This document shows, piece by piece, positions 42,636 to 43,335 of a stretch of 64,000 bases of DNA; position 1 is the first letter of the stretch, and the number at the start of each line of letters is the position of its first letter. A program made the position numbers and the translations under genes. The stretch comes from Martinezella rhizogenes (lineage in GTDB: Bacteria > Pseudomonadota > Alphaproteobacteria > Rhizobiales > Rhizobiaceae). The stretch spans positions 992,001 to 1,056,000 of the forward strand of contig NZ_JUHG01000011.1 of the NCBI RefSeq assembly GCF_000799715.1, in the 5' to 3' direction. Under the pieces are notes generated by a model, which saw only the letters and a program-made list of their open reading frames with translations, ran no database searches and had not been told where the DNA came from.

Positions 42636-42699
42636 GGCGAGCAGCACAGCCGCCCACAAGGTCGAAATGGGCAATTGTCATCGGCGACGATGGAGAGGT

Positions 42700-42740
42700 C
42701 CCCTCTCCCCGCTTTACGGGGAGAGGGCTAGGGTGAGGGG
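42700..42740 (+). repeat. GC-rich palindromic repeat, copy 1 (left flank of DUF559 gene)
   Basis: A 41-bp unit: a hairpin CCCTCTCCCCG/CGGGGAGAGGG followed by CTAGGGTGAGGGG. It ends 20 bases before the DUF559 start codon. Copies of this type are widespread in Rhizobiales genomes. Confidence 0.85.
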
Positions 42741-42760
42741 CCTTCCACGGGGACAATCAG

Positions 42761-43164
42761 ATGCGTGGTCCAGAACCAAGTACAACAAAGCGTGCACGCA
42801 ACCTCCGTCAATCGGACAATTACGCCGAGACCAAACTCTGGTCGGAACTTCGCAACCGCCGACTGAACGGTTTCAAATTCGTCCGGCAATTTCCAATCGC
42901 ACCATATTTCGCGATTTCGCCTGCCGAGAGCGATCCCTTGTGGTCGAGATCGACGGCAGTCAGCATGCAGATAGTAAACGGGATATAGTTCGCGATGAAT
43001 TCATGAACGCGGAAGGCTGGTCAGTGGCTCGCTTCTGGAACATCGATGTGCTGACAGCCATGCCTTCCGTTCTCGACACCATTGTGGCGATTTGCGATGG
43101 CCGCTTAACGGACCCCATTGTTGCCCGTGACTTGAAATTTTTCCCGGCTACTCGCCAGGAATAG
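42761..43164 (+). pseudogene. DUF559 nuclease-like gene with a one-base frameshift
   Basis: Two overlapping frames join into one DUF559 protein of about 134 residues. The first (from ATG 42761) gives AETKLWSELRNRRLNGFKFV and RQFPIAPYF; the second, one frame over, gives DFACRERSLVVEIDGSQHAD and SVARFWNIDVL up to TAG 43164. Adding one base after 42912 restores YF-A-DFACRERS, the family consensus. DUF559 is a PDDEXK/Vsr-like endonuclease fold, with E and D in VVEIDGSQH as probable catalytic residues. The lesion may be real decay or a sequencing error. The gene is enclosed by inverted copies of a GC-rich repeat. Confidence 0.85.
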
Positions 43165-43203
43165 CCCCTCACCCCAACCCTCTCCCCGCTTGCGGGGAGA
43201 GGG
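43165..43203 (-). repeat. GC-rich palindromic repeat, copy 2 (right flank, inverted)
   Basis: The same unit as copy 1 in opposite orientation, starting at the base after the DUF559 stop codon: CCCCTCACCCCAACCCTCTC then a CCCCGCTTGCGGGGAGAGGG hairpin. Confidence 0.85.
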
Positions 43204-43261
43204 AGTCCGTTAGCTCTGTAACTGTCAAAAAACACAGGCCTATCAACAAATTCGGACAGAT

Positions 43262-43302
43262 CCCCTCTCCCCGTAGAACGAGGAGCGGACTAGGGTAAGA
43301 GG
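43262..43302 (+). repeat. GC-rich palindromic repeat, copy 3 (degenerate)
   Basis: A diverged unit in the same orientation as copy 1 (CCCCTCTCCCCG ... CTAGGGTAAGAGG). The hairpin arms have lost pairing. It lies 34 bases before adenine deaminase. Confidence 0.7.
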
Positions 43303-43335
43303 CAGCACGGAATCATAAGAACGACAGGATTTGCC

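Follow-up and report, generated by a model that had tools for sequence, protein, structure and literature searches.

The DUF559 locus in the window

The window (the whole stretch of DNA that was analysed, 64,000 nt) carried a DUF559 gene enclosed by palindromic repeats, which raised the question of whether gene and repeats belong together in the way that RAYT transposase genes belong with REP sequences, as the initial annotation had proposed. The layout described there, in which two inverted hairpin repeats with inward tails enclose a DUF559 gene and a third, degenerate copy follows, was confirmed (Table 1). The order between the aminotransferase gene and ade was unit 1, DUF559 gene, inverted unit 2, and unit 3. 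Unit 1 was 42 nt long and ended 19 nt ahead of the ATG at 42761 (20 bases had been given); unit 2 was inverted at the gene end as described, but it overlapped the stop codon by one base instead of starting just after it; and unit 3 was located 58 nt beyond unit 2, as had been read, and was better kept in relatives (e.g., G006, G066, G050, G021, and G020).

Table 1. Features of the DUF559 locus, with positions counted from the first base of the window
Feature	Position	Strand	Description
Repeat unit 1, BoxC/TM type	42700..42741	+	palindromic core plus tail AGGGTGAGGGGC toward gene
DUF559 (PF04480) gene, subfamily A, frameshifted	42761..43164	+	two-frame family match
Repeat unit 2, inverted	43164..43203	-	tail toward gene; first base is last base of TAG stop
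Repeat unit 3, degenerate	43262..43303	+	divergent pair with unit 2
Aminotransferase–ade (adenine deaminase) interval	42636..43335	.	holds all three units and the DUF559 gene

Units 1 and 2 each consisted of a perfect palindromic core plus a G-rich tail, and the tail AGGGTGAGGGGC of unit 1 and its one-mismatch copy in unit 2 both faced the gene. The perfect palindrome CCCTCTCCCC-N(2-8)-GGGGAGAGGG was found in the 64-kb window only at units 1 and 2 and in none of 100 shuffles; the core (unit 1) folded as a single hairpin, and the tail alone, with at most two mismatches, was not enriched in the window (8 found vs 6.1 expected by chance).

The gene matched the PF04480 profile with a score exceeding the curated cut-off. 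A 1-nt frameshift near 42911 had been overlooked in the initial annotation: the ATG frame covered family positions 3 to 45 with a stop later, and positions 47 to 108 lay in another frame. An intact DUF559 gene in the window was ruled out by this frameshift, and the split over two frames makes the gene a pseudogene unless the draft sequence is wrong there. Intact relatives occurred in the genus, and the window holds what would be a decayed autonomous copy of the gene-repeat cassette. In the 6.54 Mb of the window's genome, 17 perfect cores were counted, and four of these bracketed the two subfamily A copies (see below) among its five DUF559 loci; the sole other subfamily A copy found (L004, G000:C1:119968-120356) was also frameshifted, which leaves this genome with no intact subfamily A enzyme among the copies found.

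Identity of the repeat

Known since the 1990s, BoxC/PIT/TM repeats have been linked to genome instability in Escherichia coli. The window's units matched the core and tail of the BoxC/PIT/triplex motif tabulated for E. coli (PMC4666352, Table 1), and a new repeat family was thereby ruled out. The core palindrome was followed by a third GGGTGAGGG strand as in the published TM table, and triplex folding is predicted from this match. The motif is given for more than 260 genomes, and transposase or integrase remnants were never found around E. coli BoxC sites, according to the available part of PMC4666352. A search for Rfam RNAs gave one match only, far under its cut-off. Among the matches listed from the open-access literature, with subscription papers and preprints largely outside the search, none tied DUF559 to BoxC, REP, or palindromic repeats. 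The link between DUF559 and BoxC-like repeats is, to our knowledge and within the literature searched, new; the repeat itself had already been described as BoxC/PIT/TM.

Inverted flanks of DUF559 genes

Flanks were scored irrespective of repeat class by local alignment of the upstream flank against the reverse complement of the downstream flank, with a threshold of at least 18. Three sets of loci were used: (i) 94 genus loci read from the PF04480 matches that a profile search gave across the genus, where 64 of 80 genomes, the window's included, had one (five loci of the window's own genome, 29 best-scoring ones, and 60 hand-picked among the matches listed, short and broken genes being taken first); (ii) 80 named loci, i.e., the best 80 relatives of the query, mostly from other Rhizobiales genera with some from Rhizobium and few from beyond, which overlapped the genus set for some loci (e.g., L163 and L164); and (iii) 29 phylum-wide loci, best-scoring among 299 genomes of which 112 had a match.

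The threshold was reached at 19 of the 94 genus loci (one unscored, 74 of the 93 scored falling below), at 44 of the 80 named loci (two unscored), and at 12 of the 29 phylum-wide loci, the last two sets being best-scoring picks and so neither a random draw. The corresponding count for control open reading frames was 1/307, so that the comparison asked for at the outset, DUF559 genes against other genes, came out far above control. The sole control gene that reached the threshold was lipB (L122, 2850 to 3569, reverse strand), located between inverted tRNA-like copies. Many DUF559 loci were shared through common descent, so that raw counts run too high; when 175 genus, named, and E. coli loci were grouped by homologous outer flanks into 30 site clusters, 18 of the 29 scorable clusters had at least one both-sided locus. 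The both-sided inverted-repeat pattern is common in DUF559 without being universal, and much of the family examined had no repeats flanking both sides. Among the 175 loci, with three subfamily A loci (L292-L294, of G039, G073, and G062) left out of this comparison, no pair had cassettes of at least 78% identity over at least 250 nt together with unrelated flanks, and gene mobility is therefore not claimed.

DUF559 subfamilies and repeat classes

The genus loci were assigned to subfamilies by short sequence signatures, and the repeat classes beside them were named TM, C, B, and D. The subfamilies displayed different profiles of repeats: (i) subfamily A had TM units within 400 nt at 16/16 loci, 13 of them with units on both sides and tails inward, the remaining three being cut by a contig end, a fragment with an outward upstream unit, and a locus where only the downstream unit fitted this pattern, and 15/16 reached the both-sided score, the other one being that cut by the contig end; (ii) subfamily C had its own unit (CCTTCTCCCC..GGGGAGAAGGTGCCCGAAGGGCGGATGAGGGG) at 27/28 loci, with the tail toward the gene at 25 of these 27 and units on both sides at 3/28; (iii) subfamily D had its own unit upstream at 4/4 loci; (iv) subfamily B had its own unit upstream at 11/20 loci; and (v) subfamilies E, F, and G had none of the TM, C, B, and D classes at 20 loci, one of the two E loci reaching the both-sided score with another repeat. 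Six genus loci were left unassigned. A strict scan for TM at the 29 highest-scoring genus loci found none, because these belonged to other subfamilies. Random genus DNA amounting to 400 kb (20 stretches of 20 kb) contained 3 TM, 4 C, 0 B, and 0 D units.

The distance from unit to start codon was 18 to 23 nt in 12 of the 14 loci (of 21) where it could sensibly be measured, a count of little weight in which one locus was probably included twice. Co-divergence of protein and repeat across 29 representatives was only weak (rho = 0.20, with 28 of 2000 permutations as high). The repeat classes were defined after viewing the same loci, which makes the test on copy numbers (see below) the more independent one.

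Copy numbers of the repeats

Perfect cores of TM, C, and B were counted in the same 80 genomes (backward-pattern controls were zero among those listed), the presence of subfamilies B and C being judged manually on score, identity, and coverage. Genomes with the cognate subfamily had more cores than those without it: medians of 21 vs 6 for TM (subfamily A in 17 genomes), 52 vs 16 for C (subfamily C in 32 genomes), and 19 vs 4 for B (subfamily B in 30 genomes). All three cognate effects stayed significant after four units were subtracted per carrier genome, and the non-cognate comparisons gave AUC values of 0.53 to 0.66. With phylogenetic correction on an ade gene tree of 79 genomes, t was 4.4 (TM), 5.9 (C), and 5.9 (B) for the cognate effects, and two of six non-cognate effects were nominally significant, namely C on B (t = 2.3) and C on TM (t = 2.9), the latter of which may stem from mixed pairs of TM and C units spaced by about 50 nt. 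Each of subfamilies A, B, and C thus predicts the genome-wide number of its own repeat after correction for phylogeny. Subfamily A itself was present at one or two sites per genome, and its 17 carriers held 2 to 47 perfect cores.

The mixed TM plus C pairs recurred at this spacing in G007, G034, and G039 (e.g., G007:C1:582820 and 582897), as if the two classes had moved together, and were also seen gene-less at phoR-pstS.

Gene-less and filled sites

Empty sites had been suggested as a check at ade, and gene-less versions were indeed found there and also at phoR-pstS. At ade, 22 of the 30 loci read were syntenic: seven with the cassette (the window's counted) and 15 gene-less, of which four had one or two units and 11 had no TM unit. 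In G031, a lone unit stood where filled relatives had unit–gene–unit–spacer–unit, and its outer sequence resembled, by eye, that to the left of unit 1 and to the right of unit 3 in those relatives; in G002, one core replaced the unit 1–gene–unit 2 stretch. The 11 gene-less relatives without TM carried a different hairpin at ade, whose ends GCCCCTCA...TGAGGGGC resembled those of the repeat.

At phoR-pstS, 24 of the 30 loci read were syntenic: four filled (one a fragment) and 20 gene-less, the latter comprising nine with TM or C units (six with a pair and three with a single unit) and 11 with none detected. At both sites, the gene-less and filled versions differed between repeat units, a state that, as far as sequence goes, can be explained by loss through unit-to-unit recombination as well as by insertion at a resident unit.

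ycjD and BoxC pairs in Escherichia coli

The DUF559 gene of K-12 is ycjD; its 3' end overlapped a BoxC core, with a full unit further on, and strain TC_EC10 had a full BoxC unit at the 3' end of ycjD, its tail facing the gene. On the 5' side lay a near-perfect, AT-richer hairpin (TCACCTCATTCTGACA..., L052, 2258-2302) of a type other than BoxC. Of the four BoxC pairs read in MG1655, three had inward tails and a spacer of about 17 to 30 nt, while in the fourth, at lldD-trmL, the tails pointed outward; an inward-tailed pair of E. coli reads as the cassette layout minus the gene.

These pairs varied between strains: (i) at hrpB-mrcB, two strains were without about 100 bp holding the BoxC pair, with edges differing by several bases, and one strain had the pair collapsed to a single core; (ii) at alx-sstT, two strains had the pair collapsed to a single core and a third had unrelated sequence; and (iii) at ygfF-gcvP, two strains were without the pair, but wider differences were present there. 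BoxC pairs and the window-type cassette thus both have relatives collapsed to one core.

BoxC places were more numerous in ycjD-positive records than in ycjD-negative ones (median 8 in 42 rows vs 5 in 18 rows, uncorrected for phylogroup). The 60 rows were spread over 4,776 matching records (662 of 5,426 genomes matched neither), and the search favoured K-12-like units, its further places being counted and taken as BoxC. As a clean empty/filled pair, ycjD was rejected, since ycjD-less loci carried a TetR/efflux operon instead: in the four read at length (L354-L357), a TetR regulator and efflux genes lay beside fabI, where ycjD lies elsewhere. In strain 2017-01-4CC (L359), ycjD had no 3' end, and the missing stretch lay between two direct copies of GAATATTCTCCAGCACCGTCTCC.

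The nuclease

The predicted structure of a subfamily A protein had a mean pLDDT of 87, and its best match, the only one with E below 0.001, was a DUF559 crystal structure. The next match was the homing endonuclease I-Bth0305I (TM 0.77 by target length); Vsr came lower (TM 0.58 by target length), with several mitoribosomal chains scoring between the two. For VsrA (CCNA_02930), a DUF559 protein of Caulobacter, a role in mismatch repair and an active site of five residues are proposed in the available part of PMC12907096. By spacing, these residues would correspond to E23, D52, D65, H69, and D75 of subfamily A, the last being off by one position; in 42 aligned sequences, the latter four were invariant and E23 was at least 90% conserved.

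A probable gene-repeat partnership and its alternatives

DUF559 genes resembled the RAYT genes of REP/REPIN-RAYT systems (REPtrons) in several respects that are described for the latter in the available parts of PMC2817692 and PMC8049555: a gene between two inverted palindromic repeats (found at 15/16 subfamily A loci and in part of the other subfamilies), a correlation of gene type with the abundance of its own repeat (found for TM, C, and B), a low copy number of the gene, which seems to be inherited at old sites, and repeats occurring as singles and inverted pairs. In contrast, RAYT is an IS200/IS605-like HUH tyrosine transposase, whereas DUF559 has an endonuclease fold, and REP is headed by GTAG, whereas the BoxC-like units, by eye, had no such head. 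The likeness to RAYT initially noted therefore stands for the two published hallmarks of inverted flanking repeats and gene–repeat correlation and fails for the enzyme, and a system of this kind would work like REP-RAYT without being one, its enzyme being no HUH transposase. The earlier interpretation as a whole was borne out in part, given that the repeat was already described, that the window gene is a frameshifted remnant, and that much of the family examined had no both-sided flanks.

Alongside the flanking, orientation, class specificity, copy-number correlation in three classes, gene-less sites, and presence or absence of repeat pairs observed above, DUF559 genes and BoxC-like repeats probably form gene-repeat partnerships that work like REP-RAYT, in which the nuclease would recognise and move the repeats. 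In the autonomous form, two units with inward tails would enclose the gene (repeat> gene <repeat); scattered single units and pairs would be gene-less, non-autonomous forms, and each subfamily would serve its own repeat class. The nuclease would act on single-stranded DNA, recognising the unit when folded either as the hairpin alone or, with the tail included, as an intrastrand triplex, and would nick it at the core/tail; host repair would then copy or excise the unit. For the most part, the genes seem to be inherited in place at old sites (one or two copies of subfamily A per genome), so that mainly the short repeats would spread. A bolder form of this reading, which is plausible but which we hold with somewhat less than even confidence, is that DUF559 is the transposase equivalent of the BoxC-like superfamily in Pseudomonadota. 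A REP-type system would then have evolved a second time, independently of the first, and its nuclease of the Vsr/homing fold, matched to the repeats class by class, would recognise units folded as single-stranded hairpin-triplex structures and spread them.

The main alternative is that DUF559 is a homing-like parasite and the repeats are older than it: something else would have moved them, and DUF559 would have cut its cognate repeat and been copied in by recombination, leaving bracketed genes. I-Bth0305I being the best fold match after DUF559 itself speaks for it, as do the single unit of G031 at ade against unit–gene–unit–spacer–unit, with outer sequence similar by eye, and the gene-less phoR-pstS relatives with a repeat pair (6/20) or a single unit (3/20); more targets would also yield the copy-number correlation. 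We nevertheless consider it unlikely: subfamily A occupied one or two sites although its carriers held 2 to 47 perfect cores, and the E. coli repeat pairs were themselves present or absent, so something moves or removes them. Less likely again is a passenger or regulatory association, with the hairpins serving the gene of a repair nuclease as terminators or insulators and a co-inherited factor behind the repeat abundance; the units lie directly beside the gene, unit 2 overlaps its stop codon, and a repair role is indicated for Caulobacter VsrA in the available part of PMC12907096, but this would leave unexplained both the inward tails and the finding that, across whole genomes, the presence of a subfamily mainly predicts repeats of its own class. 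That a common repeat met the gene by chance is hardly credible: such repeats are common in intergenic DNA and shared descent swells the raw counts, yet among the 29 scored site clusters 18 included a both-sided locus, whereas a single one of the 307 control genes had such flanks, and class specificity and the phylogeny-corrected correlation likewise stand against it.

The proposed partnership of nuclease and repeat differs from known systems as follows: (i) BoxC/PIT/TM has the same core and tail as the window's units, but its E. coli sites are described without a mobility gene in the available part of PMC4666352, whereas the repeats here were tied to DUF559 genes; (ii) I-Bth0305I and Vsr share the nuclease-domain fold according to the predicted model, but the DUF559 gene was bracketed by repeats and no host intron was seen at it; and (iii) VsrA is a DUF559 protein whose five proposed active-site residues have putative subfamily A counterparts by spacing, but the role proposed for it is mismatch repair (PMC12907096, available part). 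BoxC/PIT/TM is an old repeat family, and no enzyme was known to spread it; the proposed partnership offers a candidate, and if DUF559 is the BoxC enzyme, this open question becomes testable in E. coli through YcjD. If true, REP-like systems would have arisen with two unrelated enzyme folds, and a domain of unknown function would gain a role. The DUF559 family also gave weak matches to the anti-phage proteins Hhe and ProA, in their C-terminal parts, which suggests that defence makes use of a related nuclease domain.
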